Shown: positions 13,108 through 38,900 of the stretch, in pieces
Layout of the letters: each line of letters starts with the position of its first letter
Position numbering within the stretch: position 1 is the stretch's first letter
From: Candidatus Cloacimonetes bacterium HGW-Cloacimonetes-1
Lineage (GTDB): Bacteria; Cloacimonadota; Cloacimonadia; Cloacimonadales; Cloacimonadaceae
Length of the DNA stretch: 42,529 nucleotides
NCBI GenBank assembly: GCA_002841975.1
Contig: PHBQ01000018.1
Coordinates: forward strand, 1-42,529
Direction of reading: 5' to 3'
Translations under genes and position numbers: made by a program
The notes under the pieces: generated by a model
Told to the model about the DNA's origin: nothing
What the model saw: the letters and a program-made list of their open reading frames with translations, nothing else
The model's database searches: none

Positions 13108-15351
13108 ATGAAACATTCACTAGTGCTTATTGTTACTTTCATCTTAATCGGCAGCCTCTACGCTGCCCCTCGTGGAACCACCCAAAGCGAATATCCCACC
13201 ACCGGATCAGTTTATGACCAGGCCCCTGTTTACCATCCGGCACTTCGAATCCCTCCAGCTTCCACACCTACATTGTTTAATCGCGAAGAATGGATGATGG
13301 CGGATTCATTGACGATCAAATCTATACTTCCCGCCAACAGCCAAATCGGCGTCAAATATCGTAGCCTGGATCAGGGTATTGAAGCATTCAGCTCCTTAGG
13401 GACATTTAGTCCGGAAATGATTGCAGCAGTGCACAAAGCCCCACGGTGGATGCAGGCAGAGCTCACAAATGTATTGCTCCAACTCAGTCCCGATCGGCAA
13501 ATCCTGTGGGTAAATACCATCAATAATGCAGTGGACCCCTACATCGATGAAATTGCCTTCAGTATCGCCAATTCTTCGGCCACATACCTTCAGTCACCGC
13601 TGTCGACTCCCCAGCTATTTATCGAAAATGCCGAATTTATCTATGCTATCGACGAAGACTTGGCTTACGTCTCTGTAGTCAACCATGGCACATCCACCAG
13701 CGACCCCAATTATTATTCTACCACATCCTACCGTAAATACAATTCCAATGGAGAATTGGTGAATGTAGAAGTCCCGCGTGACATTTACTATTGGTATATC
13801 GTACATCCCAAATTGACAGATGAAATTCCTGCCTATATTGATCCCGCCATTGTCGAAAACAACAGCAACCACGCAAATAATATCACCGCTCCCCAGATAG
13901 GGCAGTTCTGGAGATCGTATCTCTACAGCGTGCAGGAGGGAGAGTATCCGGTGCTTAGTGACACTCTGACGACAGTGCAGACACTCTTCAATCATAACGG
14001 AAACACCTCTGATGCAATTCACGCTCTCCAGTGGTGGATCAATAATACTATGGCTTTTACATCCAATAACGAGCGTCCTCATCAACCCGTCCGCATCTAC
14101 AGCAAACACTTTGGACGCTGTGGCGAATACGCAGATTACACCAGTGCGATTGCGCGGCTGGCATTGATCCCTTGCACCAGTATCCTATCCATGTCTGGGG
14201 ACCATACCTGGAACGAGTTTTGGGACGAAGCATGGATCCATTGGGAGCCTGTAAATGGTTATATCAACGATCCTCTGGTCTATGAAAACGGGTGGGGAAA
14301 AGTCTTTGGATCCGTCTTTGAAATTCGCAGTGATGGCTTCCTGACATCTGTAACAGACCGTTATTCCGAAGGCCTGGCCACTATTTTGGTGCATGTCGCA
14401 GATTCTACAGGAGTCGCTATCGACGGTGCCAGAGTCATCCTTGCCTATCAAGAGACTGGTTTTATTGTCGATATGATAGATTTTACAGATAATGCCGGTA
14501 ACGTCACTTTCCTCGTGGGTGAAAACCACAGTTACTATGCCAGAGTGGAGACCCCACTCGGGATATATCCTCCTGTGGCAGGCACCTATTCCGCGCTCTG
14601 TGCTAACGCAGTCGATGGCGGAGAATATGCCTATCAACTCACAGTCCCCTGTGCGATGCCGGTGGCAACAGTTACAGATCTGGGTTTACCTGCAGACGAG
14701 ACGCAGGATTGGCGGATCGGCGTGTCCTTTAGTGCTCCCGTCTATTACATTAACGGCAGAGTCAGCTGGGACGATCTCTCTGCTCAAGGTACTATTCCGC
14801 GATTTTACAAGCTGGTCAACGAGCCTTCGACCATCAATATGCTGATCACCGATGAGGATAACTATTTGTTTTATCAAACTATGCTCCTCTGCGAGGCCAA
14901 TCTCTATCTGCCCAATACCGATCACGGTTTCGTAAATTTCAATGTACCGGCCCAGCAGAATTGGTATGCCTTTCTGGACAATTCGACCCGCCTGGCAAAT
15001 TCACCCCTCATAGAAAGTATGATGCTATATGAACATTACGGAGTCGGCGTGGATGACCAATTGTTACCAATAACTACCGCAACATTGCATCAGAACTACC
15101 CCAATCCTTTCAACCCTTCGACCGCTATCCGCTTTGACATTCCACGAGCCACGGAAGCAAGCTTGAGGATATACAATCTGCGAGGTCAGCAGGTACGCAA
15201 GCTATTCGCCGGTAGTGTCGAGTCTGGTATGCACACTATAAACTGGGATGGCACGGATGATGCTGGTCAAGCGGTGTCTGGCGGGATGTATCTCTATCGA
15301 CTACAAAGTGAGAATATGGACACTATTCGTAAAATGGTTTTACTCAAATAA
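13108..15351 (+). CDS. Secreted transglutaminase-like protein with T9SS type A sorting domain
   Basis: This 747-residue exported protein has a signal peptide (to about residue 19, SLYAA). A transglutaminase/protease-like papain-fold core carries GRCGEY (Cys338) and GDHTWNEFWD (His366). Where the third catalytic residue, usually Asp, is expected, WIHWEP shows Glu380. A carboxypeptidase-regulatory-like beta sandwich follows near 425-500. The C-terminal domain (661-747) begins HQNYPNPFNPS and ends RKMVLLK, with IYNLRGQ and SGGMYLYRL. That is the FlgD-like type A sorting signal, which directs cargo across the outer membrane through a type IX-like machine and is then removed. A protease or crosslinking role on surface protein is possible. 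Its TAA stop overlaps the ATG of the RNase HIII gene. Confidence 0.85.
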   Translation: MKHSLVLIVTFILIGSLYAAPRGTTQSEYPTTGSVYDQAPVYHPALRIPPASTPTLFNREEWMMADSLTIKSILPANSQIGVKYRSLDQGIEAFSSLGTFSPEMIAAVHKAPRWMQAELTNVLLQLSPDRQILWVNTINNAVDPYIDEIAFSIANSSATYLQSPLSTPQLFIENAEFIYAIDEDLAYVSVVNHGTSTSDPNYYSTTSYRKYNSNGELVNVEVPRDIYYWYIVHPKLTDEIPAYIDPAIVENNSNHANNITAPQIGQFWRSYLYSVQEGEYPVLSDTLTTVQTLFNHNGNTSDAIHALQWWINNTMAFTSNNERPHQPVRIYSKHFGRCGEYADYTSAIARLALIPCTSILSMSGDHTWNEFWDEAWIHWEPVNGYINDPLVYENGWGKVFGSVFEIRSDGFLTSVTDRYSEGLATILVHVADSTGVAIDGARVILAYQETGFIVDMIDFTDNAGNVTFLVGENHSYYARVETPLGIYPPVAGTYSALCANAVDGGEYAYQLTVPCAMPVATVTDLGLPADETQDWRIGVSFSAPVYYINGRVSWDDLSAQGTIPRFYKLVNEPSTINMLITDEDNYLFYQTMLLCEANLYLPNTDHGFVNFNVPAQQNWYAFLDNSTRLANSPLIESMMLYEHYGVGVDDQLLPITTATLHQNYPNPFNPSTAIRFDIPRATEASLRIYNLRGQQVRKLFAGSVESGMHTINWDGTDDAGQAVSGGMYLYRLQSENMDTIRKMVLLK

Positions 15352-17969: not shown

Positions 17970-19103
17970 ATGCGTCAAATCCGAAACAGTTTTACCCTTC
18001 TGATCATAATAGTAAGCATAATGGGATTATTGACATCCTGTAGCCGTTTTGATCACGACTTTGATCCCGCTGTGGTAACAGACTTTCAAACAGTTATCTT
18101 CACCCCTCTGCAATCCTCATTTAATGCTATTACCGCTACCAATCTGGAACCAGTAATGGCTTATTATACACCTGAATATCTCCACAACGGAGTAGATAAG
18201 GCAGCCCGTGAACAGTATTATCAGTCCCTTTTTAGTGCAGCATCTACTCTGAACTTTGTGGTGACTATGCAGGAAACTGTGCAATTGACGGACACTACTG
18301 CCGTCACCAACTGGAATCTGAAGGTATATGTCCCGGAAGCACGGTTTGCCATAGCGGATACAACCTTTACAGGTACAAAGATCGTGAAACGAAACAATCA
18401 ATGGTTGCTGTTGGGTAACCAATTGACAGAAGGTAGCTCCACCCTCAAGCAACGTGTGATAGTGGAGAACTTTACCTTCACGACATGTCCCAATTGTCCG
18501 GAAGTGGAAGCTGTTTTACACGCACTCCAATTGCAATATCCTACTCAGTTCAGCTATCTGGAATATCACTTTGGCGATGTATTGGATATAGGTAATGGAG
18601 ACATATTCTCCTATTATGCAGGCTCGACCATGCCCCTCTCCATATTTCAGGGGACGACCAAACTCACGGGTAGCACAGAAGCTGTCCTGGCGCAATATCA
18701 CAGTTTATTTAGCAATCTCTCGGCACTGGAGAGTTCCTTCCAAATAGATAATTTGAATTATACTATGACCAGCCAGAACCTCTCGGGTACGGTGCGGGTC
18801 ACACCCTTGGGGACGGCTGTGGATCAAAGCGCACTCCGCCTCAAATATGTACTGATCGAAAAGGTGTCCGCGATTACGAATTCCGTGCAGGAACCGTGTC
18901 GTAATGTCGTACGTGCCAAAGGCAGTATGGATATCAGCACTCACGATTTTGCCAGTGATATCAGTTTCTCACTTCCGATCAATGTTACTATCCCCGATGA
19001 TGCCTACTTGCTGGTTTATGTCCAGAAAGTTCCCACCACCTATACCAATAATGCGACCATATACAATGGTATTGAAGTACCGGTCTCGGTCACAACTAAA
19101 TAA
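17970..19103 (+). CDS. Omp28-like lipoprotein with a thioredoxin-type CPNC site
   Basis: This 377-residue lipoprotein has a signal ending LLTSC (Cys24). The N-terminal part of about 110 residues looks like a SnoaL/NTF2-like cone domain. From about 160 it matches Omp28-related proteins: VIVENFTFTTCPNCPE, with a C-x2-C pair at Cys173 and Cys176 in a thioredoxin-like fold, then beta-rich segments and a further Cys in QEPCRNVVRA. CPNC placed like a thioredoxin active site suggests disulfide exchange or electron acceptance at a membrane surface. I chose the ATG at 17970 because GGAGAG (17960-17965) precedes it and the signal peptide begins MRQIRNS. Frames open further upstream (ATGs at 17904 and 17946) would spoil the signal. 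It is first of five thiol-related genes; the next is TlpA-like, 10 bases away. Confidence 0.8.
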   Translation: MRQIRNSFTLLIIIVSIMGLLTSCSRFDHDFDPAVVTDFQTVIFTPLQSSFNAITATNLEPVMAYYTPEYLHNGVDKAAREQYYQSLFSAASTLNFVVTMQETVQLTDTTAVTNWNLKVYVPEARFAIADTTFTGTKIVKRNNQWLLLGNQLTEGSSTLKQRVIVENFTFTTCPNCPEVEAVLHALQLQYPTQFSYLEYHFGDVLDIGNGDIFSYYAGSTMPLSIFQGTTKLTGSTEAVLAQYHSLFSNLSALESSFQIDNLNYTMTSQNLSGTVRVTPLGTAVDQSALRLKYVLIEKVSAITNSVQEPCRNVVRAKGSMDISTHDFASDISFSLPINVTIPDDAYLLVYVQKVPTTYTNNATIYNGIEVPVSVTTK

Positions 19104-19113
19104 GGAGTTTAGC

Positions 19114-19623
19114 ATGAAGAAACTACTATTGATCCTGATCCTGATCGGCATTACCTGTTTTGTCTTCGCACAAAAAATGCCGGCTTTCAAACTGCAAGAC
19201 ATCAATAACAAAGAGGTAACCTTGGCATCACTACTTGCCAAGGGTCCGGTGATTATAGATTTTTGGGCATCTTGGTGCAGCCCCTGCAAAACATCGATGC
19301 CATACCTCAATGCCCTGGATGAGAAGTATGACTCCCTGACTGTGGTCATGATCTCGATTGATGCAGCAAAGGACATCAGTAAAGCGAAAAGCTATTTCAA
19401 AAGCAAACAGTTTAGCATGGTGGGTCTTTTTGACAGCGATAAAGCGCTTGCCAAGAAGCTCAATGTTAACAACGTTCCGCACACCTTTATTGTAGATCAA
19501 AGTGGGAATATTGTATCGTCTCACGTAGGCTTTGAACCGGGAGCAGAAGTTGAATATGAGCGGATTGTGCGCGGCTTGCTCCACCTGGAGTCATTACAAA
19601 TGGAGGAAAGCTTTGATGAATAG
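19114..19623 (+). CDS. TlpA/ResA-like periplasmic thioredoxin
   Basis: This 169-residue protein has a signal peptide (to about QKMP, residue 18-21) and one thioredoxin domain of the TlpA/ResA/AhpC-TSA type. The active site is FWASWCSPCKTSMPYL with Cys55 and Cys58; Trp54 and the conserved cis-Pro in NNVPHTFIVD complete it. A 25-residue insert after the active site (SIDAAKDISKAKSYF) matches the ResA/TlpA class. Such proteins reduce disulfides in the periplasm and usually take electrons from DsbD or CcdA; a dsbD gene lies four genes downstream of the lipoprotein here. AAGGAG at 19102-19107 fixes the ATG at 19114. Its 3' end overlaps the next start by 8 bases. Confidence 0.9.
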   Translation: MKKLLLILILIGITCFVFAQKMPAFKLQDINNKEVTLASLLAKGPVIIDFWASWCSPCKTSMPYLNALDEKYDSLTVVMISIDAAKDISKAKSYFKSKQFSMVGLFDSDKALAKKLNVNNVPHTFIVDQSGNIVSSHVGFEPGAEVEYERIVRGLLHLESLQMEESFDE

Positions 19624-21058
19624 GGTACTCTGTATTTTAGTTATCATACTGGCAATCGGTACTCTCTCTGCCCAAAACACTTTGCAAATAAACGGCTTAA
19701 ATGAAGCCAGCTTTACCTATCGCACCGCCGAAGATTCGCTTAATGCCTATTTCCGTGATGCCTTTGCCTGGTCAATGAACTATCGGGACTTCAGCTTTGG
19801 CATGAAATTCGTAGCTGAACTGCCGAAATATTCCACAAATCAGAGCGAGTTACTGGGAGACTTGGTATCCAATAAACTCGATATGGACTGGAAAGAACTA
19901 TTCGTATCATACAGTAAAGATTCGTTTAAAGTTCACGCCGGAACGATCATGGAAACCTTTGGGGTTGGCATGAACTTCCGCAGTTGGGAAGACCTCGAAT
20001 TTGACAAAGATAACCGCATTGATGGTTTCTTGACCAGCTATGACAACAAACTGAAACTCAAAGCGCTTTATGGAGCCATTGCCAATATCGATAATCCTGC
20101 CATTTACGATCTGGCTTATGGTGCCGATGCTCAATACCCACTATTTGATGCCCTGTCATTGGGAGCAACAGCACTGACCTATCGTACCTATACCCCCTTT
20201 AATACCTATAACCAACAGGATGTCTTTGGCGGCAGAGGCTTGATCAGTTATGGCAATTTTGATGCGGCGGTGGAGTACTCGCAAACGGAACTCTACAAAA
20301 ACAACGGAATCAGTCGCGACGGAACCGCTATCTATGCCAATGCAAACCTCTATCTGCACCCCTTTCAGTTCGGAGCAGCTTACAAAAACTATCAGGACTT
20401 CTTCTTTAGATTGCAGGATTTACCAGCGGTAAACTATCACAACGAAACCCTGGCAGACAACCAGGCATCGGGAATTGACGAAGAAGGTGCACAGGGCTGG
20501 ATTACCTGGAACATGAATGAAAACTGGAGCCTTACCGGGAACTATGCCGAAGCTTGGGACAGTGAATTTGGCAAACGCATGAATGACATCTATACCGCTT
20601 TGGAATGGGAAGATGGATATAAACTCCTGGGTTTGGAATACTCTCACGTCGAGAAAGTGGATACCGATCTCGATCAGTGGCAAGCAGAAATGACACCTGG
20701 ACTCCATGGTGGTACGATGCTATGGGGTAAAATGATCACCACCAAAGCAGAATACAAATATGTAGAAAAGCGAAAGCACGAGATCACTTCCAGCCACTAT
20801 GAACCAAAGTTGCAAGCAGATTTTAGTATTGGTGATGTCGCCTTATCACTGGGAGTTCAGTCTCATTGGACAGAGGTCTCGGAACTCATGGATGCATTAT
20901 ATTGGACAAATGTAGAGGCCAAGTATAGCCTCTTTGAGCACACAGATTTATTGGTATTTGCCGGAAAGGATGCGGGTGGCAAGGTTTGCCGCAATGGTAC
21001 CTGCCGTTATGTAGCACCTTTCAAAGGCGTCAAAGTCGAGCTTAGCACCAGATTTTAA
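19616..21058 (+). CDS. Outer-membrane beta-barrel in the redox cluster (DUF6029-like?)
   Basis: This 480-residue exported protein has a signal peptide (MNRVLCILVIILAIGTLSAQ) and a mature part of alternating strands. It contains many aromatic-capped hairpins such as FSFGMKFVAELP, SLGATALTYRTYTPF and GKMITTKAEYKYVEKRKH, and ends STRF, the expected barrel terminus. It resembles the DUF6029 group of Bacteroidetes-like outer-membrane proteins, though I am unsure of that name. A C-x4-C pair (Cys458, Cys463) lies in one hairpin loop about 20 residues from the end, unusual in a barrel and fitting a thiol-exchange role. The ATG at 19616 follows GGAGGAAAG and overlaps the TlpA stop. An earlier in-frame ATG at 19532 would precede the signal peptide and is unlikely. 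Confidence 0.75.
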   Translation: MNRVLCILVIILAIGTLSAQNTLQINGLNEASFTYRTAEDSLNAYFRDAFAWSMNYRDFSFGMKFVAELPKYSTNQSELLGDLVSNKLDMDWKELFVSYSKDSFKVHAGTIMETFGVGMNFRSWEDLEFDKDNRIDGFLTSYDNKLKLKALYGAIANIDNPAIYDLAYGADAQYPLFDALSLGATALTYRTYTPFNTYNQQDVFGGRGLISYGNFDAAVEYSQTELYKNNGISRDGTAIYANANLYLHPFQFGAAYKNYQDFFFRLQDLPAVNYHNETLADNQASGIDEEGAQGWITWNMNENWSLTGNYAEAWDSEFGKRMNDIYTALEWEDGYKLLGLEYSHVEKVDTDLDQWQAEMTPGLHGGTMLWGKMITTKAEYKYVEKRKHEITSSHYEPKLQADFSIGDVALSLGVQSHWTEVSELMDALYWTNVEAKYSLFEHTDLLVFAGKDAGGKVCRNGTCRYVAPFKGVKVELSTRF

Positions 21059-21077
21059 AGCATTTTAGGAGATTAAA

Positions 21078-22433
21078 ATGAAGAATATACTATTATTGAT
21101 AATGATCCTGAGCATTAGCATGGCTTTTGCCAATCCCACATATTATCCCACCACTACAATTGCGGAGGACTTTGGTGCCACTTGGTGTGGCGGATGCATC
21201 GATGCCGCAGCTGGGATGGCAATCATGAATGATACCTACAATTCCGGAGAGTTCTTTAGTGTAAATTATTTCACTACTTCCGGAGATCTCAGCAATGCTG
21301 AAGTGGATGCCCGCTTTACTCATTATGAAGTCTTTGGTGTACCCACTGTGATCTTTAATGGCAAGACCCGGATGTCCGGCAACGGCTCCGAAATGGCTGA
21401 TGGTACACTCTTTGAAGCCAACTATCAAAAATACAAATTCAATGCATCTCCGCTGAAGATAGACATTGCTCAGTTTACGCCTACTAACGGGCATTTCACA
21501 GGAAGCGTTACAATGCTCTCTCCGAGTATCACTCTGACCAATCAAAATATCTATTTCCTCTTGATGGAAGATGATGTAACCACGGTAGACAGCAGAGTAA
21601 CCAGATCTATATTTTCTCAGAATATTAGCCTGACAGGGGAGAATTCGGTTTCAAACTTTGACGTCAATTTTACGATTAATCCAGCCTGGAACCAGGCAAA
21701 CTTGTGGGCAGCAGTATTTGTGCAACTGGATAACAACACAGTTCTCCAAGCCGCTTCCACCATCCCGGTTCCGGACCATTATTTGCGTGCAGCATTTGAC
21801 TGGTCTGTGAGTGATATTGGTGCACCGAATACATCGTACCTGGGTGAGGATTTCTATCTGTTTAACTTAGGACTTGCAGATACATACAACACTCGCATAG
21901 TAGTAGATTCTGCTCCGGAAGGATGGTATTTTAACTATTGTGAAGGCGAAAATTGCTATCCCGGAAGCATCCTGATTCCACATTCACTGGCTGCAGGAGA
22001 AGTAAAGGGATTTCACCTCAATCTTTCGATCGGTGCATCCGGACTTGCGATCTTCCATTTTGAAGTCACGTCTCCCAATATCGGCACGATGATCATACCT
22101 TTCCGCATCCATACCAGCGATTATGTGGCGAATGACGATGTACTGATCACGAGTCCCATCCGCATGGGCAAGAACTTCCCCAATCCCTTTAACAGAGAAA
22201 CCAAGATTCAGGTCTTTGCCGATAAGGGTAACTCCAACGCTACTATTGATATTTATAACATCAAAGGTCAATTGGTGAAATCGATCACCCATCACAATCT
22301 CAGCAGTGGAGCTAACGAAATCACTCTGAAGCTGGATCAATCTGAAGCCAGCTCTCTTTCCAGCGGAGTGTATTACTACTGCTTACAGGGTTCCACCGAA
22401 CCAGCACGTAAAATGCTGATGCTAAAACAATAA
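21078..22433 (+). CDS. Omp28-like thioredoxin protein with T9SS type A sorting domain
   Basis: This 451-residue exported protein has a signal peptide (to about FANPT). A thioredoxin-like Omp28 domain follows with active site GATWCGGCIDAA (Cys37, Cys40) and a cis-Pro turn FGVPTVIFNG. A beta sandwich near 230-350 carries a second C-x4-C pair, NYCEGENCYP (Cys288, Cys293), in the position where related secreted proteins carry a conserved disulfide. The C-terminal sorting domain (363-451) has MGKNFPNPFN, IYNIKGQLV and SGVYYYCLQG. So this thiol protein is probably moved to the cell surface by a type IX-like secretion route while its neighbours stay in the envelope. AGGAG at 21067-21071 supports the ATG. 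It lies 19 bases after the barrel and 49 before dsbD. Confidence 0.85.
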   Translation: MKNILLLIMILSISMAFANPTYYPTTTIAEDFGATWCGGCIDAAAGMAIMNDTYNSGEFFSVNYFTTSGDLSNAEVDARFTHYEVFGVPTVIFNGKTRMSGNGSEMADGTLFEANYQKYKFNASPLKIDIAQFTPTNGHFTGSVTMLSPSITLTNQNIYFLLMEDDVTTVDSRVTRSIFSQNISLTGENSVSNFDVNFTINPAWNQANLWAAVFVQLDNNTVLQAASTIPVPDHYLRAAFDWSVSDIGAPNTSYLGEDFYLFNLGLADTYNTRIVVDSAPEGWYFNYCEGENCYPGSILIPHSLAAGEVKGFHLNLSIGASGLAIFHFEVTSPNIGTMIIPFRIHTSDYVANDDVLITSPIRMGKNFPNPFNRETKIQVFADKGNSNATIDIYNIKGQLVKSITHHNLSSGANEITLKLDQSEASSLSSGVYYYCLQGSTEPARKMLMLKQ

Positions 22434-22482
22434 GTATCCGTAACAGTGATAAAACCATATTCAAGAGTGAGGTAAAAGACTT

Positions 22483-24291
22483 ATGAAGATCAGGAATAAA
22501 CTGTTTGCAACAGTGTTGTTGTTGCTACTCGGGATGAGCCTTTGGGCTGCGGCGAGTGTGCAAATCAGCATCCAGCCGGAATCCATGAAACCCGGAGAAA
22601 AGGGCATCCTCAAAGCCGTGATGACTATTCCGAAGGGCATGCATCAGACTTATGTCCCGGGTGAGAATGACTACTTTTATCTAGATGCCAAAAACCCCAA
22701 TCTCAGCTTTGGAGCAACGGTTTATCCCGCTCCGACAGAGAAGATTTCCGCTACCGAGTGGAGCTATCATGGCACTATTACGTTCACCAAACCTTTCATA
22801 GTCAAAGCGACTGCCAAACCGGGAGCTGGCAAAATCAATGCAGAATTTGCCTACAACATCTGCTTGGATAGCGGAGCCTGTGAACCCCCGGAAACAGTAA
22901 ATAAAGACATCAGTTTCACTGTAATCGGCGAACCGGTGGCGGTGGCACCTCTACCGGAAACTACCGAAGCGGAAGTGATAGAAGAACCAATCATCACAGC
23001 AGAAATTCCCACCACGGAAGAAACAATTCCCTCTGAGCCTACAAAACCAGATGGTCAAAACGTCTGGAAGTTCTTGCTGATGGCGTTCTTGGGTGGCTTG
23101 ATCCTGAACGTGATGCCATGTGTATTGCCCGTGCTCTCGATCAAAGCTATGAGCATCGTGAAACAGGCTCAGGAAGACAAAAAGCAGATACTGAAACACT
23201 CAATGGCCTATACTATGGGGATATTGACTACCTTTATCCTGATGGCGACGGTAATTATCGTCATCAAAATGACTGGAGAGGCAGTAGGTTGGGGCTTCCA
23301 ATTCCAAAATACCGGATTTGTGTTGTTCCTCTTGTCCTTGATCTTTGTTTTTGCACTCTCTCTGTTTGATGTATTTCTCATCAATGCCCCGGGGATGTCT
23401 GCCTCTACCAAAGCCAGTTCCAAAGGTGGAGTCAGCGGATCTTATTTCAGCGGCATATTTGCCGTCTTGCTCGCAACACCATGCTCTGCACCGATGCTGG
23501 GCACAGCTCTAGGCTTTGCCTTTGTTCAGCCCCCTGTGATGATCCTAGTGTTCTTCACCCTGATCGGCTTGGGCTTGGCACTTCCTTTCATCCTTTTGGG
23601 CTTGAATCCGAAGTGGATGAAAGTGATCCCCAAACCCGGTGAATGGATGAATATATTCAAAGAAGTCATGGGCTTCCTGCTGCTGGGAACAGCGGTCTGG
23701 CTGCTACATGTGGTATTTCAGCAGAATGGAGGCAACTATCTGCTCAGCGTCCTGATCTACCTCGTCTTCCTGGGATTTGCGGCATGGATGTATGGACGTT
23801 TTGTGCGCTATGAATACTCCAAAACCACCCAGTGGATATTTACTGTCCTCGCAATCATCGTGATTGCCGGATCAGCATATCTGTTCCTACCCGTCCCGGA
23901 TGCTTCCCTGCAAGGTGAGACGGCACAAACAGCCGAAATGCAGGGCTGGGAAGGTTGGCAGACCTTTAGTCCGGACTTGGTGAAGGAATTGGTAGACCAA
24001 GGCGAGCCGGTGTTCGTTGATTTTGGCGCAAAGTGGTGTATGACCTGTATTACTAATGAGAAAACAGTGATCCAGACAGCTGCCATGGAAGAAGCATTTG
24101 CTGCCAAGAAAGTACAGCTGATTCATGGAGATTATACCAAAAAGAATCCGGAAATCCAAGCATTTATGAAGCAGTTTGGCAGAGCGGGAGTTCCCTTTTA
24201 TGTCCTCTATGTTCCCGGTCAAGAGCCCAAACTCTTCCCTGAAATCATCACCATTCCGATGCTGAAAGCTGCATTGGAAGAGATAAAGTAG
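22483..24291 (+). CDS. dsbD: Thiol:disulfide interchange protein DsbD, full length
   Basis: This 602-residue three-domain protein fits DsbD, which moves reducing electrons from cytoplasmic thioredoxin across the inner membrane. The signal peptide is followed by the immunoglobulin-like alpha domain with CLDSGAC (Cys127, Cys133). A Pro/Glu-rich linker spans about 155-195. The beta domain of about eight helices has the paired cysteines in NVMPCVLPVLSIK (Cys213) and LLATPCSAPMLG (Cys334). The gamma thioredoxin domain has FGAKWCMTC (Cys519, Cys522) and GVPFYV. All six redox cysteines are present. Its place after two Omp28-like proteins, a TlpA and a Cys-containing barrel suggests they are its clients. 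A strong terminator ends the cluster. Confidence 0.95.
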   Translation: MKIRNKLFATVLLLLLGMSLWAAASVQISIQPESMKPGEKGILKAVMTIPKGMHQTYVPGENDYFYLDAKNPNLSFGATVYPAPTEKISATEWSYHGTITFTKPFIVKATAKPGAGKINAEFAYNICLDSGACEPPETVNKDISFTVIGEPVAVAPLPETTEAEVIEEPIITAEIPTTEETIPSEPTKPDGQNVWKFLLMAFLGGLILNVMPCVLPVLSIKAMSIVKQAQEDKKQILKHSMAYTMGILTTFILMATVIIVIKMTGEAVGWGFQFQNTGFVLFLLSLIFVFALSLFDVFLINAPGMSASTKASSKGGVSGSYFSGIFAVLLATPCSAPMLGTALGFAFVQPPVMILVFFTLIGLGLALPFILLGLNPKWMKVIPKPGEWMNIFKEVMGFLLLGTAVWLLHVVFQQNGGNYLLSVLIYLVFLGFAAWMYGRFVRYEYSKTTQWIFTVLAIIVIAGSAYLFLPVPDASLQGETAQTAEMQGWEGWQTFSPDLVKELVDQGEPVFVDFGAKWCMTCITNEKTVIQTAAMEEAFAAKKVQLIHGDYTKKNPEIQAFMKQFGRAGVPFYVLYVPGQEPKLFPEIITIPMLKAALEEIK

Positions 24292-24304: not shown

Positions 24305-24345
24305 GGGGCTATTGCACTTAGTTTGTGAGATAGCCCCTTTTTTTT
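24305..24345 (+). terminator. Strong rho-independent terminator after dsbD
   Basis: GGGGCTAT (24305-24312) pairs perfectly with ATAGCCCC (24330-24337) and is followed by eight T. It starts 14 bases after the dsbD stop, closing the thiol-redox cluster. Confidence 0.92.
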
Positions 24346-26469: not shown

Positions 26470-26518
26470 AAAGCCTATGCAAAGATTGACGTTCAATTGT
26501 GGAAGGCTTTTTGCATAG
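26470..26518. promoter_or_regulatory. Two overlapping, mutually exclusive inverted repeats
   Basis: AAAGCCT (26470-26476) can pair with AGGCTTT (26504-26510), with TTGA/TCAA nested inside. CTATGCAAA (26475-26483) can instead pair with TTTGCATAG (26510-26518). The arms overlap at both ends, so only one stem forms fully. The first resembles a terminator for the trmJ transcript. A TATACT box at 26519-26524 could start the peptidase transcript just downstream. Confidence 0.4.
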
Positions 26519-26561
26519 TATACTATCAGATTATGACTTAAGCGTACACCAAGAAGGATTT

Positions 26562-29312
26562 ATGAAAAAGACTATAATACTACTGATATGCTTGTTGCCC
26601 TTGATGTTGCTGGCAAAGACCATGAATGTCCACGTCGAAATGGAGATGCCAGCCTTTGATACAGCTGCAAACTCTTTTGAGAGAACCGTCAACTACGGTT
26701 CGATTACTGCACCCGGGAAGTGGCAATTGCCAGTACGTACGATCAATATTGCTCTGCCAGCAGGTGCAGAAGTGCTGTCTCATAGCTATGTAATGAACTC
26801 CGAAAGTATGCTTCCGGCTGCGGAACCAAACATCAATCCCGGCTTTAGTAACGACGAGAGAGTATTAACTGCAAGTCCTCAAAAAAGCAGCAGTGCCCAG
26901 GTCGTATATCAAGGAACGGGGAAATGGGGAGATGTAGTCTATGCCAGCTTTAGAATCTTGCCGGCTCGTTATTCCTCTGCATCAAGCGCTTATATCTGGA
27001 ATAATAGTTTAGAAATCAATCTGGAATATCGGGAAAGCGAGGAGCGGGGTTCCAATATCCTGCCCGAAACCTTGCAATCACCAGAGTTCTTTGTCAACCC
27101 GACTGCTCTCAAACAGATGTATCGCCGGGATAGCGCGAAGAATTATAAATATTTAATAGTTACCACTCCCCAGCTCTATGCGGCAGCCTTTGAATTAGTT
27201 GCGTTTCGCCAGTCCCAGGGATTGATCACAGCTTTTGCAGATATATCCACGATTCTGCAGACTTCACCGGGGGCAAATGATCCCCAGCGTCTGCGCAATT
27301 ATCTGGTCACTGCATATGCCCAGAATCACTTTTCATACATCCTCCTGGTGGGGGATTACGATGTGGTTCCTGTTGCAATGCTGACTCCCGAGCCGGACGG
27401 CATGGACACGGTTCCTTCGGATTTTTATTATAGTGATCTGAGTTCAAATTTTGATTCAGATTCAGATGGTCGTTTGGGAGAATACTCGACGGGTGTAGGA
27501 AATCAAGATTGGCAAGTGGATTTTACTCCGGAAGCCTTTGTGGGAAGAATCTCACTGAACACTCCGGCAGATGTGAGCACCGTTTGCCAACGTATAGTAG
27601 CATTTGAACAGAGTACCGCTGCCTGGAAAAACAAGACTCTATTACCCGCAGCATTCCTGAACTATGCAGGAGAAGGCCCCAACAACGAATTTTTGCAGAC
27701 AGATGGGGCAGATATGATGGAACTGGTAAAAAGTACAGTTCTAAACGGCAAACAAAACACCACTATGTACGAGCACTTTGGCGTAGTATCCTCTCACCCC
27801 AGTACAGGGGATGTCGGCTATGATGCGGTCACGAATCTACTCCGACAGGAAAGCTTTGGCCTGATCAATTGGAGTGCACATGGAAGCCCTACCTCTTCTG
27901 CCAGAAAAGTATGGGTGGCAGATACCAATGGTGACAATATTCCCAATGACAACGAAATGCAGTGGATGGGTTTGGTCGATAACAGCAGTTTTGACAATAT
28001 TGAAACCACCGATGGGGCAGTGATATTCGGTGCCTCTTGTTACAATGGCATGATAGATCATAGTGCCCCGTCTTTGGCAGAATATGCGCTGCAGAAAAAG
28101 GGTGTAGCCACGATCGGTGCGACCCGTACGGGGTGGTACAAGATAGGCTGGAAAAACCCAGGTTGGGGCGGTTTGACGTCCTATAACTATCATTTTCTGG
28201 AGAACTATGTCAAGCTAAGGATGTCTGTCGGTGCTGCGCTTTCTTATGCCAATCTTTTACACTCGCAGTATTATTTCTTTGGAGATCCTGTGGATTCGGA
28301 TGGGATCATCTGGCCGGAACTACAGAATATTTACACCTATTTACTCTATGGAGATCCGGCAATAGGCTACAGCGCCACCGGGGGTAATTACACAGGTGAA
28401 ATCCTGGTGTGGGAACCCAACGGTGCAGACGGAATAGCCGTGATCAATGCTATCAACGCTGTGAGTAGTTTCAACGTGATTTATACCGATAAGTTGATCC
28501 CGGATTATGATTATCTGGACAATTTTGCAGCAGTATTCTGCCTCTTGGGCTTTGGCACAAATACCTATACACTACAGCCAAATTCGCTGGAGCATACTAT
28601 GCTGAACAGCTATTTGGATAATGGTGGTAAAGTGTATATGGAAGGAAACATCAATTGGATGCAGAACGATCCCTTGTTTTCGAAGTTTGGCACCACTACC
28701 CCCTTTACCAATCCGGCATTTATCGAAAGGCTCCGCTTTCGTAAACCACCTATAGAGTATCGCTGGACCTATATATCGGAAGATATGTTTACACAAGCGA
28801 TGTGGTTCACAGGAGATCAAGCTGTGCCAATCATCAGTTCATTTAATACAGCATATGCCAATGATATCATCGCCGTATGGAATACGAATGGATCCTATCG
28901 CACCATATCCAGTTCCTTCCGCCTCGGCTGCATCATCGCTCCTTCGAGCACTTTGAGCACACTGGTTCGGATTATCATAGATACTCTAAATGTGCAGAGC
29001 ACAGCTCCGGTGGCAAACAGTGATGAATACCTGGTCGCAGCCAGTCTATCACTCTCTTTGTACCCAAATCCTTTTCATGGCAGCGTCACAGCAGATGTGA
29101 AAAACATCATAGGGGATAAAGCCCGAATAGATGTGTACAACATCAGAGGGCAGAAGGTTTACACAAAGCATTACACCGATATCGATAAAACTCAAACGTT
29201 TACGTGGGATGCCAGGGACTGGCAAGGTCGCCGAGTTTCCAACGGGATTTATCTGATAAAAGTATCTACTGGAGCTCAGAGTAAGATTAGTAAAGCCATT
29301 TTGATAAAGTAA
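26562..29312 (+). CDS. Secreted gingipain-family (C25) cysteine peptidase with T9SS sorting domain
   Basis: This 916-residue exported protein has a signal peptide (MKKTIILLICLLPLMLLA) and a propeptide-like N-terminal region to about 190. The C25 peptidase domain follows: YLIVTTPQLY near 199, HFSYILLVGDYDVVP near 260-275, LINWSAHGSPTS with catalytic His440, and VIFGASCYNG with catalytic Cys493. A beta sandwich near 620-820 leads to the type A sorting domain (832-916: SLYPNPFHGS, IYNIRGQKVY, GIYLIKVS). It is probably a surface or extracellular cysteine protease, related in fold to Porphyromonas gingipains; Arg or Lys specificity cannot be read. AAGGAT before ATG 26562 supports this start, which restores a clean signal peptide; a GTG at 26499 is in frame but would spoil it. 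Confidence 0.9.
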   Translation: MKKTIILLICLLPLMLLAKTMNVHVEMEMPAFDTAANSFERTVNYGSITAPGKWQLPVRTINIALPAGAEVLSHSYVMNSESMLPAAEPNINPGFSNDERVLTASPQKSSSAQVVYQGTGKWGDVVYASFRILPARYSSASSAYIWNNSLEINLEYRESEERGSNILPETLQSPEFFVNPTALKQMYRRDSAKNYKYLIVTTPQLYAAAFELVAFRQSQGLITAFADISTILQTSPGANDPQRLRNYLVTAYAQNHFSYILLVGDYDVVPVAMLTPEPDGMDTVPSDFYYSDLSSNFDSDSDGRLGEYSTGVGNQDWQVDFTPEAFVGRISLNTPADVSTVCQRIVAFEQSTAAWKNKTLLPAAFLNYAGEGPNNEFLQTDGADMMELVKSTVLNGKQNTTMYEHFGVVSSHPSTGDVGYDAVTNLLRQESFGLINWSAHGSPTSSARKVWVADTNGDNIPNDNEMQWMGLVDNSSFDNIETTDGAVIFGASCYNGMIDHSAPSLAEYALQKKGVATIGATRTGWYKIGWKNPGWGGLTSYNYHFLENYVKLRMSVGAALSYANLLHSQYYFFGDPVDSDGIIWPELQNIYTYLLYGDPAIGYSATGGNYTGEILVWEPNGADGIAVINAINAVSSFNVIYTDKLIPDYDYLDNFAAVFCLLGFGTNTYTLQPNSLEHTMLNSYLDNGGKVYMEGNINWMQNDPLFSKFGTTTPFTNPAFIERLRFRKPPIEYRWTYISEDMFTQAMWFTGDQAVPIISSFNTAYANDIIAVWNTNGSYRTISSSFRLGCIIAPSSTLSTLVRIIIDTLNVQSTAPVANSDEYLVAASLSLSLYPNPFHGSVTADVKNIIGDKARIDVYNIRGQKVYTKHYTDIDKTQTFTWDARDWQGRRVSNGIYLIKVSTGAQSKISKAILIK

Positions 29313-32987: not shown

Positions 32988-35900
32988 TCATTTTGTCACT
33001 ATTGTTCTTTCGGCTTTGATCCGGTAGAACATGGTACGGGAAGGGTTGTTCACTACAAATTCCGGATCGGTAACAGTATCGATCAGGTTAAACACGCCGT
33101 CCGGTGTATCGCAAGCATAGATATTGTAATGGGTAACATTTGTGATGGAGTTCCAATGGATGCGAATTCCGGTGGGAGTGCTCTGGATAGATGTAATGGG
33201 AGTGGCTATTGCAGAAGTGTTGATAGTGATTGGCATGGGATCAACAGACCCGATTACTTCTCCATAAGTCACTGTCATGCTGCCCTCGACATCATATATC
33301 TCGTCGGTGGCATAAGCGTATACCTTGAGTGTGACGATTTCATTGGGATTATTCATTTGTACGAGCAGTGTAGAATAAGCTCCTATTCTCTGGATGACGA
33401 CCGAAGTGGTACCTCGGCATTCGTTACCCACAAAGGCAGCGACCATGTCATTTGCTTGGGCAGGGATGCCATCCAGCGTAACTAATCCGTAGATCGTCGC
33501 AGGGTTGTTGGGATAGAGCACCGGAGCCCAGACCGGTGTATTCACGGGTAGGACAGTCACTGTTACGTTATCACTATTCGACAGGCTTCCGTCCGAAACC
33601 GTGAAAGACAGAGTCTCGCTGCCAATCCAGTTCTGAATCGCACCCAAGGTTACAGTGGAACCAACGATATTGACTGTGATATTGGTATTCCCGCTTACTG
33701 TGAGTGTGATAGGATCCCCGTCGCTGTCATTGATATAAGAGCCGAAGCTTTGGATGAGAGTAGAGTTTTTACCAAAGCTGAAGCCGGTCGGGAGATCAAT
33801 AGTAGGAGCGTGATTGCTGATGCCCACTTCCATGGAGACATCGACAGTCTTCTGAGGTGATACGGGGTCATTGGAGTTCACGGTAATGACCGCCAGATAT
33901 GCACCGGCATCCATGTTAAAGGCACTGAGATCAACTGCGATCTGGGCATTTGCTCCGGGAGCAATGGTGCCAGCCATGGGAGTGCAACTCATCCATTCGA
34001 CCGGAGGCGCTGAGCATGTGAGAACAATCGCATCCGACAGCGTGTGAGGTTCTGCACCATAGACATCACCATCAAGCTGATAAGCAAGTATCATATCTGT
34101 TGCATAGCCCGGGGCGATACTGACATTGACGGTGGTGGTAGCAGATTCGGCACCATGAATCACACCCCATGAGCCTGATACACCATTCCAATGGACTTGC
34201 ACGCCGTTACCGGTGGCGTTATCCGAAGTCATATCGCCGCCGGTACCTCCGACAAAGGAGGTAGAGGAATTGACAGTAACACCGGTAGGGAAAGTGATAT
34301 AAATATCTTTTAACCACTCGGTGTCTGTACTGGCATTGGTAACTGTGAAGGTCCAGTCCGTAGTCATTCCGGGAGTGTATTCAGCAGTATCCAAAGTCAA
34401 GGTGGAACCTATAATGCTACGGTATGAACCGTTATTGGGATTGATAGCGGGTATACCAATGGCTCCTCTGGCAGTGAATTCTTCCATACCTATGGTATAA
34501 TTTAAGGGTTGACTCCCGGTATTGGAGATAGTAAAGTAACGTGTTTCTTCGGTTCCACCAGCCAGCGATGCGTTGATCGTGTTCACGTTCAAGACTGCAG
34601 TGGGAGGAATAAATCCGCTGCCGCTGACGTTGACGTTGACAGTGGAGCTGTTGGTAGCATTTGTATTGATCACGATATTTCCGGAATATGTTTGCGCAGC
34701 AGTGGGGGAGAATGAAACAGTATAAGTAGCAGTCTGACCCGCTGGCACATTGATACTCAGAGAATTACGCTCACTCCGTGTGGAGGCAAGAGAGACAGTA
34801 TAGGCCACAGGAGTAGTAATTGATCCTGTCAAGGCTTGAGAACCTGTGTTTTGGATCGTGAACTGAGAAGTCCCTGTGGTTCCGACTGCAACACTACCCA
34901 GATCCAGAGTTGTGGTGGGTACATTGATCATTGCAGCTGTTGGTAAGTCTTCAAAGAAGAGCTTCACATTCGGGATGTATGCCGAAACAGCAAGATAAGT
35001 ACCTGTAGTTGGTGGTGTTACAGGATCAGGATTTATACTATCGCTATAGAAATAGAGGCTGCGGTTTCCTGTGACAGCACTACACATGAATTCATCACTC
35101 GAAGAATGATAACCGGAAGTATTCTCGTCCACAGCTATCACCAGGTTGTTTGTGTTATTGTAGATAAATGGTATATTGAGAGTTACTTCGACCCATCCGG
35201 CGGTAGTGGTCACAGACATTGTGCCATCATAAACTTGGGTTAATCCAGATACAGGTAGCCAAGCAGAGTTAGAAGCATAAGAACTGGTGCTGGTATGCCC
35301 CATATAAATCTTGATGGCATCGGTCCATGCACTGTTTCCGTTGTATTGCCACGCCAGTTTATAAATGCGCTTATCTGGCATATTTAACTCATTTTGCATA
35401 TAGATGGACTGGGAATACGTATATCCATAATAGGGTTCAAGGGGTAGATGCTGGTTTGTTGTTGCAGATGTACCTATTGTAACAGAGGTTGGCACTGCTG
35501 CGGTTGGCGTAACAGACACGGTGTTGGACGCAATTGATTCCCCGGCAGGACTGGCATAGATGGCTGTGACGTAATAGCTATAGCTGGTTTCATTTATTAC
35601 AGTATTGTCGAGGTAAGTCAGAGCTGTGATAGCTGTGGGCGTCAATGATGATCCATTACGATAGACCTTGTAGCCAGAGAAGGCACGGTCCATAGTGTCT
35701 TTCGTTTCATAGCCACGAGCTGCGGGGGCAGACCATGAGAGGCTTACATTTCCATTTCCGGCTATGCCCACCAGAGTTTGGGGAGCGGGGGCGGAAGGAG
35801 TTGCCGAAGCTGTATTTGAGGCTGCTGATTCGCTCACGGGACTGGTATAGGTAGCCGTGACATAGTATGAATAGGATGTACCATTGGTGACGGCGGTATC

Positions 35901-38900
35901 GCTATAAGTCAAGGCTGTAACAGTTGTGAGCAGGCTTGAATTTCTGTATATTTTATAGGCTGAAGGCGTACCGGTGGTGGGAGCCTGCCAGGCTAAAGCT
36001 ACTATCATGTTGCTGGGAGTAGCGGTCAGATTCTGCGGAATCGGCGCCAGCGGGGTTGCTGAAACAACAGCAGTAGCTGCTGAACTTCCGCCTGTATAAG
36101 CGGCAATGAGATAGTAGGAATATAATGTGCCATTAGTAACTGCAGAATCGGTATAGGTCAGAGCTGTTACTGTCGTCAGCAATGTTGAGTTTTTGTAAAT
36201 TTTATATCCTGTAGGAGTTCCAGAACTTGGAGCTTGCCAAGAGAGAACCACAGAACCATTTCCCGCTGTTGCAGTAAGGTTTTGAGGAGGGTTATACGTA
36301 ACAGATGAAGTGGATGCAGGGAAGATAATGTTGTCGATCCAAGCACAATTGGAACCGGAATCAACGGAACCATCCTTCATATATTCCCACTTCAGAATGC
36401 GAGTCCCTGCGCTGAGTGGATAGGTAGCCTGTGTCCAGGCAACCTCACCAGACCAGCCTGTGCCCTGAAGCACGTTATCTATGTAGAATTTAAGGTAGTC
36501 GTAGTTGCCTTCGGAGGAGACTTTGTACCAGAATGATACGTTTCCGGCTGTGGTGAGGATGCGTGTGGTAGTCATGCTTGTGCTTTGGCTGTGGGTAATT
36601 GCACCACTCTTGGCGGCGTAGGTGCCGGCATAGGCACCGGAGTTTACGACTGTCCAGTTCTGGTTTCCGGCCAGAGTCCAGGGGTAGGCATTGAAGTTTC
36701 CGGTTTCAAAGTCTTCCAGGATCAAACCAACGGCAGAAATCTCGGTCTTAGCTGCAGAATAAGCCCCTGAAGTCGCACCAAAGACGAAGCTGGCAGCTGT
36801 GCCAATAGTCATGGAAGCGGCAGCGGTAGCAGTAAAGGAGATGGTTGCAGATCCTGAAGCGGCAATAGCTGTAAAGGTTTCCGCACCATCGGTGATCGTG
36901 ATTCCAGTGGTAGGAGAAGTCAAGCTAGCGGAACCTGCAAGTGCAGCAGCAGCACCGGCATTAGAAAGCTGGATTTGAGCTGTGAAGCTTTCCCCCGGAT
37001 CTATTCTACCGTTGTTATTGCCGGTGGGGTCTAAAATTGTCATTGATCCAAAGCTAAGGGCTGGAGCATTGATCACTTGAGTAAAGTTGTGCGTCCAAGT
37101 ATCCGTTCCGCTCACCATGGTCAGTGTGAAAGCAGCAATTGTGCCGTTGGCAACGTTATTGGCAATATTGAAGGTATAGGCATTGCTCTTTGTTACTGAT
37201 GCACCGGCAGCCAGTGATGTAATACTCTCGGTATTATCTGTGAACGTGATCCCGCTGGTGGCACAGGTAAGAGTTGCTATGACATTGCTGGCAGCAACAG
37301 CACCGACGTTATTAAATGTAACAGAGAATCTGCCTGTTTCATTGTATTCGGCTACGTTGTTGTTGGTATCCGAATAGGTGGTAGCGGTGACTCCTATATA
37401 TGCCCCGGCATTGGGGATAATCTGGACATCCACAATCTTGGTAATCCGGTTTTGGCGAGTGAATACCAATTGGGCAGTTCCTACCGTACTAAACGCAGTA
37501 ATAGGCAGTGTCAAAGAACCGCTGGTTCCCACGACAGCTGTACCATAGAGCGTTCCATTCATTGAGAGAGCCACACGGGATTGAGCGTCAGCCGAAACAT
37601 TTATCGATGTAGCACCTATCAATATCTGATTGGGATAGGTAGCAGTATTCACGGTTGGAACTCCAAAGTATGGCATCAGGGACGGATCACCCATGATAGA
37701 GTAAATTTCCCAATAATAGTTGATTCTAGTGCTGGCACCTTGAGTTACGGCAAGGTTACCCATATAATTTGCATCACCAACGGTTTGCACCCAATCGGTC
37801 ACGGCTTCGCTGTGAGTATGAAACATGCCATCATAGACTCCGAGTGTGGATGCGTTGTAAGCAGGAGCAGTTCCGTTGGCTGTGCCTTTGGCACCAACTC
37901 CCCACCAATAATCTTCATCCCAATAGGAGTTGTTTGTAGCACCGATATATGCGGCTGCGGCTCTATTCGAAGCGCGTATTAGGGCTTCGCCAAAGCAAGG
38001 GCCACCCGTATAGTCAAATTTATTGGTTACGCAGCAGTTACCTACAGCGACAAAAGGTTTATTGGTATTGGTCAGGTTATTGGCATCGTTAACAGTAAAG
38101 GTGGGGTCTGCCCAAGAAGTCTCACTGCCATGGGCTGTATAATTGATATAGCCACGTCCTTCACTCGCGTTGGCAATAATGGCAGCATCACTGGTTCCGG
38201 ATACTGCATAAAGGTAGGTATTAGATGTAATCCCGTGTGCAGCGTTAAAGTAATTGGCAGTTCCATAGTTTATCTGTCCATCACCGTGAGTAGGCCCAAA
38301 TGTGGGGTCTTGTCCGGCGATCATGACCACTTTACCCAGATAGGATAAATCCGGCATGGTTGTCTTTTCAAACATCAAAGTCTTGTTTATGATATTAGTC
38401 AACTCTGTGGAGGATGATACAGAAAAACGTCCATAATACATATCCGGTACAATATCTGTCCCATTCAGCCGTACATAGGACAAGTCTGTTACATGTGTTC
38501 CGGAAGTACCGGTATTTGATGTAATATTATCACCACTGGTGCTATGATCACCCACGATTAACAAATATGTAGGGGCAGGGTTTTGTGCTGTGGCAGCATT
38601 CCAGAGCCCTTGCAGGTAGGTCTTGATGGCTGTGGTGCTATTGGCAACTGTGGCGCCGCTGCCGACAGTGGTCACGATTACAGTGAATCCTTGCTGACGT
38701 TTCCAATCTACAAAAGGCTGCAGAGTAGTCACATAGTTCGCTGGGGTCAAGATCACCATCTTGGTAGGGTAGCGAACCATTGAAACACGTTCATCGGAAC
38801 GCCAGTTAAAGATAGTTTGAGCGTAAAGATTGTCATAATCTACCGATGCGGTTCTTGCCATCAAATCGGCTGTTGCTGCCAGATCCGGATGTGCAAAGTT

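Follow-up and report, generated by a model that had tools for sequence, protein, structure and literature searches.

The window, by which we mean the whole stretch of 42,529 nucleotides that was analysed (contig PHBQ01000018.1 of Candidatus Cloacimonetes bacterium HGW-Cloacimonetes-1, a genome of 2.78 Mb), carries at positions 17970-24291 a row of five genes, all on the forward (+) strand. On the evidence of profile matches and, for g3, of an AlphaFold model, these encode an Omp28-like lipoprotein of 377 amino acids (g1, 17970..19103), a TlpA/ResA-like periplasmic thioredoxin of 169 amino acids with a signal peptide (g2, 19114..19623), an outer-membrane beta-barrel of 480 amino acids assigned to DUF6029 (PF19494) and likewise provided with a signal peptide (g3, 19616..21058), an Omp28-like T9SS cargo of 451 amino acids with a C-terminal type A sorting domain (g4, 21078..22433), and a DsbD of 602 amino acids comprising a transmembrane domain and a C-terminal thioredoxin domain (g5, 22483..24291). 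The preliminary description of this locus had reported the five reading frames, joins of 10, -8, 19 and 49 nucleotides and a terminator at the end, all of which check out. The intrinsic terminator closing the cluster (about 24305..24345, + strand) folds with -20.9 kcal/mol (z -4.45, 0/200 shuffles) into the stem GGGGCUAU/AUAGCCCC, followed by U8; a simple terminator scan did not pick it up, probably because of the long loop. The cysteine motifs too lie in the genes to which they had been assigned, namely CPNC in g1, WCSPC in g2, WCGGC in g4 and WCMTC in g5, together with a C-x4-C pair in g3. A PHROGs search gave no match.

The g2 product combines the Redoxin/AhpC-TSA fold and signal peptide of TlpA/ResA proteins with their WCxPC active site (here WCSPC, its CSPC at 19276..19287, + strand), and matches Redoxin (8.9e-23), ResA PRK03147 (2.8e-22) and, in the PDB, ResA 4nmu (6e-17), while scoring too low for the NCBIfam equivalogs of ResA or TlpA. 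The g5 product matches DsbD PRK00293 (6.8e-51, 173.5 bits against a cut-off of 330) and DsbD_TM (PF02683, 2.5e-22); the segments MPCVLP and TPCSAP supply the membrane cysteines, the C-terminal thioredoxin domain (Thioredoxin_7, 1.3e-14) contains WCMTC (CMTC at 24037..24048, + strand), and the N-terminal DsbD_N is matched at 0.0032 with 17.9 bits against 25. DsbD is known to reduce proteins of the TlpA/CcmG type, and in known systems both TlpA and DsbD work in the periplasm.

The g1 product carries the lipobox LLTSC, which bears out the claim of one lipoprotein in the cluster; its N-terminal part weakly resembles DUF4440/NTF2-like domains and the rest is thioredoxin-like with CPNC (18486..18497, + strand). 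It matches NF045500 (1.5e-6) and NF033782 (3.9e-6), both under the curated Omp28 cut-offs (27.9 bits against 200 and 26.3 against 150). The single type A sorting domain likewise stands, in g4, where TIGR04183 is matched at 4.2e-8 with 33.1 bits, above the cut-off of 23, and Por_Secre_tail at 1.8e-9; T9SS is known to export cargo of this type. The matches of g4 to NF045500 (2.6e-6, 27.1 bits against 200) and to Omp28 (PF11551, 0.002, 18.4 bits against 34.9) again fall well below the curated values, and its WCGGC (CGGC at 21186..21197, + strand) places a cysteine at the position which in many relatives is read as selenocysteine (UxxC). With scores so far below the curated values, g1 and g4, for both of which similarity to Omp28 had been proposed, are distant Omp28 relatives that are best called Omp28-like only. 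The Omp28-related selenoprotein NF045500 and the Omp28 lipoprotein (NF033782, PF11551) share with them the CxxC/UxxC thioredoxin-like core, many relatives having UGA at the first active-site position, whereas g1 and g4 score far under the cut-offs of these families. Sequence searches of the PDB with g1 and with g4 returned nothing meaningful, a plasmid tblastn with g4 returned no match, and the literature search found no paper naming the NF045500 selenoprotein family.

By score the barrel g3 is a member of DUF6029 (4.3e-22, 78.9 bits against a Pfam gathering cut-off of 27), and its C-terminus reads ...GGKVCRNGTCRYV...TRF. AlphaFold predicts with confidence a barrel of 24 main strands (pLDDT 94.5, pTM 0.88), and Foldseek places BtuB, FimD/PapC, MtrB (the barrel of the Mtr complex) and OprC as best matches at a TM of about 0.5, so that the predicted fold is that of a generic large barrel. 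In an alignment of 80 barrels, 17-57% identical to that of the window, invariance is confined to four columns, G431, C439, C444 and G452 (mature numbering). The C-terminal CxxGxC pair is present in 80/80 sequences (in g3 as CRNGTC at 20987..21004, + strand, C458 and C463 before processing, in the last long loop hairpin), and at every other column cysteine occurs in at most 8 of the 80. The loop which bears this pair, 23-24, is the last and the most conserved of the outer loops, followed by 5-6 and 13-14, all three being more conserved than the periplasmic turns. Since in the model the even-to-odd turns comprise 2-5 residues, most odd-to-even loops are longer and the termini are periplasmic, the cysteine hairpin (436-447) is predicted to lie on the outer side. 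By topology, then, the cysteine pair and the periplasmic TlpA would be found at opposite faces of the membrane.

The association of these genes extends throughout the phylum. DUF6029 occurs in 103/125 Cloacimonadota genomes, including 66/71 good ones, and 94 Cloacimonadota loci were examined, each count being restricted to loci with a long enough flank. TlpA is adjacent upstream of DUF6029 or fused to it in 83/88 loci, the Omp28 lipoprotein lies upstream in 84/85, DsbD upstream in 65/68 and an Omp28-like gene downstream in 75/79, all four partners surrounding the barrel in 55/62. This recurrence rules out a chance neighbourhood; the genes of the module are genetically linked and, as the arrangement is not peculiar to the genome of the window, their operation as a functional unit is strongly supported. 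The comparison with related genomes called for by the preliminary description therefore upholds the cluster, the order of which is not unique to this genome. The usual order in the phylum is DsbD - Omp28 lipoprotein - TlpA - DUF6029 - Omp28-like, from which the window departs in one respect: unusually, its DsbD gene closes the row at the 3' end, downstream rather than upstream. The conservation of the cysteine pairs, on which the same description had relied, holds for g1, g2, g3 and g5, but at the g4 slot in only part of the proteins. The CxxC is found in 86/86 relatives at the g1 slot (72/86 with a lipobox-like sequence) and in 80/81 at the g2 slot, and the DsbD matches are mostly full-length with WCxxC, whereas at the g4 slot 34/84 proteins have it and 50/84 are without. 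In some of the latter (one family and others) a small protein occupies the slot and an Omp28-like gene, with UGA at the first position of its active site, lies elsewhere nearby.

Outside Cloacimonadota, DUF6029 is found in 28 genomes of the same domain, and TlpA is adjacent or fused to it in 25/29 loci, the other 4/29 having no adjacent TlpA; no gene labelled DsbD was seen near the barrel in these loci, linkage with DsbD being observed in Cloacimonadota only. Seven natural TlpA-DUF6029 fusions occur, five of them in Cloacimonadota and two elsewhere. A model of a fusion is confident residue by residue (pLDDT 90) but leaves the relative placement of TlpA and barrel unfixed (pTM 0.72). SprA, the T9SS translocon, is present in the genome of the window (best E 4.1e-52) and in most of the phylum, and outside it DUF6029 and SprA co-occur (22/28 vs 33/137; Fisher p 8.5e-8, a value that ignores the relatedness of the genomes). 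Beyond the phylum Omp28 neighbours with CxxC/UxxC accompany the barrel in 15/23 loci with SprA and in 0/6 without, yet TlpA is adjacent in 5/6 of the SprA-less loci, so that TlpA and DUF6029 form the core and Omp28 is a partner associated with T9SS.

Omp28 partners with an in-frame UGA at the active-site cysteine (WUGYC, UPYC and similar, UGA taking the first position) occur in 16 Cloacimonadota loci and in 5 outside the phylum, UGA matches in five loci (for three of these loci, the ones that fall at the ends of matches) having been left out of these counts owing to a misfit of the motif. Five of the UGA-bearing genes were scanned, and match NF045500 under its cut-off. SelB scores above cut-off in 19/21 genomes with Omp28 genes of the UGA type and is found in 0/16 genomes of the window's own family, where cysteine is used or the motif is lacking. 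As many genomes have the UGA at the active-site position, and its occurrence goes with that of SelB, sequencing error is ruled out. SelA lies directly downstream of the barrel in three loci, and selenocysteine-containing thioredoxin-like proteins lie near it in three others, one of which is among the loci with a TlpA-barrel fusion. Neither these selenocysteine versions nor the SelA neighbours, the fusions or the TlpA-DUF6029 pairs outside the phylum had figured in the preliminary description.

How could these components operate together? We put at about an even chance the proposition that a DsbD-TlpA relay, with TlpA and DUF6029 at its core, feeds an outer-membrane thiol barrel and, in bacteria possessing T9SS, surface thiol or selenol proteins. 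Cytosolic electrons would pass to DsbD and thence to periplasmic TlpA, as in the established DsbD/CcmG chemistry; TlpA, which adjacency and the natural fusions would set against the 24-strand barrel from the periplasmic side, would reduce the barrel's sole invariant cysteine pair. The reduced pair, carried by the last of the outer loops and perhaps folded into the lumen, would in turn keep surface thiol or selenol proteins reduced, namely the Omp28-like T9SS protein and possibly the lipoprotein, which is Omp28-like too. At the surface the Omp28 proteins would then reduce oxidised substrates, whether disulfides or others, for instance in protein substrates of peptidases secreted by the bacterium. 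We infer this flow of electrons, its direction and its passage across the membrane; that the module may bring reducing power out to the surface of the cell is suggested by the joining of DsbD and TlpA to a barrel with a cysteine pair and to secreted thiol and selenium proteins. The management of disulfides in secreted cargo, the purpose originally envisaged, is possible as one among several. Against the scheme stand the restriction of DsbD linkage to Cloacimonadota, the 50/84 proteins at the g4 slot that are without CxxC, and the 4/29 loci beyond the phylum at which TlpA is not adjacent.

The stricter version of this scheme, in which DUF6029 in several phyla itself passes the reducing equivalents of TlpA through its cysteine pair to surface or secreted thiol/selenoproteins, is more tentative, and we judge it somewhat more likely to be wrong than right. 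The weak point of the scheme in either version is geometry, as direct hand-over from a periplasmic TlpA to a cysteine pair on the outer side needs explaining, and the gap could be bridged by the lumen of the 24-strand barrel, by inward-folded conserved loops or by partial entry of TlpA. The same separation of TlpA from the outer loop, together with the periplasmic location of TlpA and DsbD in known systems, favours a rather unlikely alternative, namely periplasmic quality control. In this case DsbD and TlpA would see to it that the cysteines of barrel and Omp28 proteins are reduced, or joined in the right pairs, ahead of assembly or T9SS export; the barrel would be a porin or channel, and no redox reaction would cross the outer membrane. 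Yet the seven permanent fusions, and the presence of TlpA beside the barrel in genomes without SprA and Omp28 neighbours, argue for a lasting partnership, and conservation in the barrel peaks at the cysteine pair and its loop, which a disulfide with a purely structural role would not demand. A disulfide of structural significance alone is disfavoured by this pattern of conservation and by the fusions.

Handling of metals appears quite improbable. Here the CxxGxC loop would be a ligand for a soft metal, copper or similar, and TlpA a Sco-like loading reductase, in keeping with the reduction of CuA sites by TlpA-family proteins in other bacteria. The copper transporter barrel OprC is indeed among the fold matches, but many unrelated barrels score alike, the loop is without conserved histidine or methionine, and the genes noticed as recurring beside the module are those for thioredoxin-fold proteins, selenocysteine proteins and SelA, not metal genes. 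Equally doubtful is a Wzi-like polysaccharide export barrel with a structural disulfide formed by its redox neighbours. A part in polysaccharide secretion has been suggested for DUF6029, which was reported to resemble Wzi-like barrels by HHpred (PMC9603273, the only mention of the family, as a possible polysaccharide porin, in the literature searched). Against this, 24 strands are predicted rather than 18, and the genes that recur beside the barrel, at 94 loci in Cloacimonadota and 29 elsewhere, encode TlpA and Omp28-like proteins, joined in Cloacimonadota by DsbD.

To our knowledge, the known thiol relays fed by DsbD end in the periplasm. Those comprising DsbD-DsbC, DsbD-CcmG/TlpA and CcdA-ResA resemble the proposed relay in having a DsbD with transmembrane and C-terminal thioredoxin domains and a partner of the TlpA/ResA family, whereas here TlpA goes together, by linkage or fusion, with an outer-membrane barrel that has an invariant cysteine pair of its own. 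The porin-cytochrome conduits of the MtrCAB type are alike in principle, a large outer-membrane barrel housing the path of electrons, but employ a chain of haems where the barrel discussed here would employ a single thiol pair, and the likeness seen to g3 is one of fold. HBP35 of Porphyromonas gingivalis, which lies at the cell surface, bears a single thioredoxin motif and has thioredoxin activity in vitro (PMC2907840); exported by T9SS (PMC3120885), it shares with g4 the export route and the motif. It has been studied for haem binding, its abstract (PMC2907840) mentioning neither a barrel nor a TlpA partner, and the similarity seen in g4 is of the Omp28 type. The earlier statement that no described system has this composition agrees with our literature searches, which found neither a thiol relay across the outer membrane nor a T9SS with Dsb proteins, absence there being no proof. 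Should electrons be transferred across the outer membrane, this would be categorically new, in that relays fed by DsbD would extend to the cell surface and provide a haem-free way of carrying cytosolic reducing power outside the cell. It would also give the uncharacterised family DUF6029 a testable function, and point to a means by which anaerobes could reduce disulfides outside the cell or maintain the activity of the thiol enzymes that they secrete.

As to the relatives of the barrel itself, a sequence search of the PDB returned nothing meaningful, no solved relative being found, and a plasmid tblastn gave no match; a search of genome contigs with the single barrel sequence had as its sole match Cloacimonetes UBA5614, at 52% identity.

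At 21 loci from other genomes, an in-frame UGA replaces the active-site Cys in Omp28-like genes adjoining the module, both within Cloacimonadota (L039, L040, L042, L055, L057, L058, L066, L071, L079, L088, L108, L115, L116, L117, L122 and L125) and outside the phylum (L127, L132, L136, L141 and L151), and these genes probably encode selenoproteins. The gene for SelA, the Sec synthase, lies immediately 3' of the DUF6029 barrel gene in three loci (L137:9190-10557, L144:6494-7954 and L155:8962-10440). Shortly 3' of the barrel in another locus is a lipoprotein gene (L140:9511-11886; lipobox AFACS), which carries a UGA thioredoxin-like domain (SWUTYC) at its C-terminal end; SprA, the T9SS translocon, is absent from this genome.

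In one family of Cloacimonadota relatives, f10, a small protein of about 240 aa, lacking CxxC and frequently bearing a CxxxxC pair, occupies the g4 slot, between the barrel and an Omp28-like gene (for example, L115:7278-8003 and L118:5839-6564).

Within the window's cluster DsbD (22483-24291) has shifted position, since it lies 3' here as against 5' in almost all relatives. The cluster is flanked by two T9SS-tailed products, a transglutaminase-fold protein (13108-15351) and a C25 (gingipain-family) peptidase (26499-29312), and the window also contains, on the minus strand, an ORF of 2172 aa (32988-39506).
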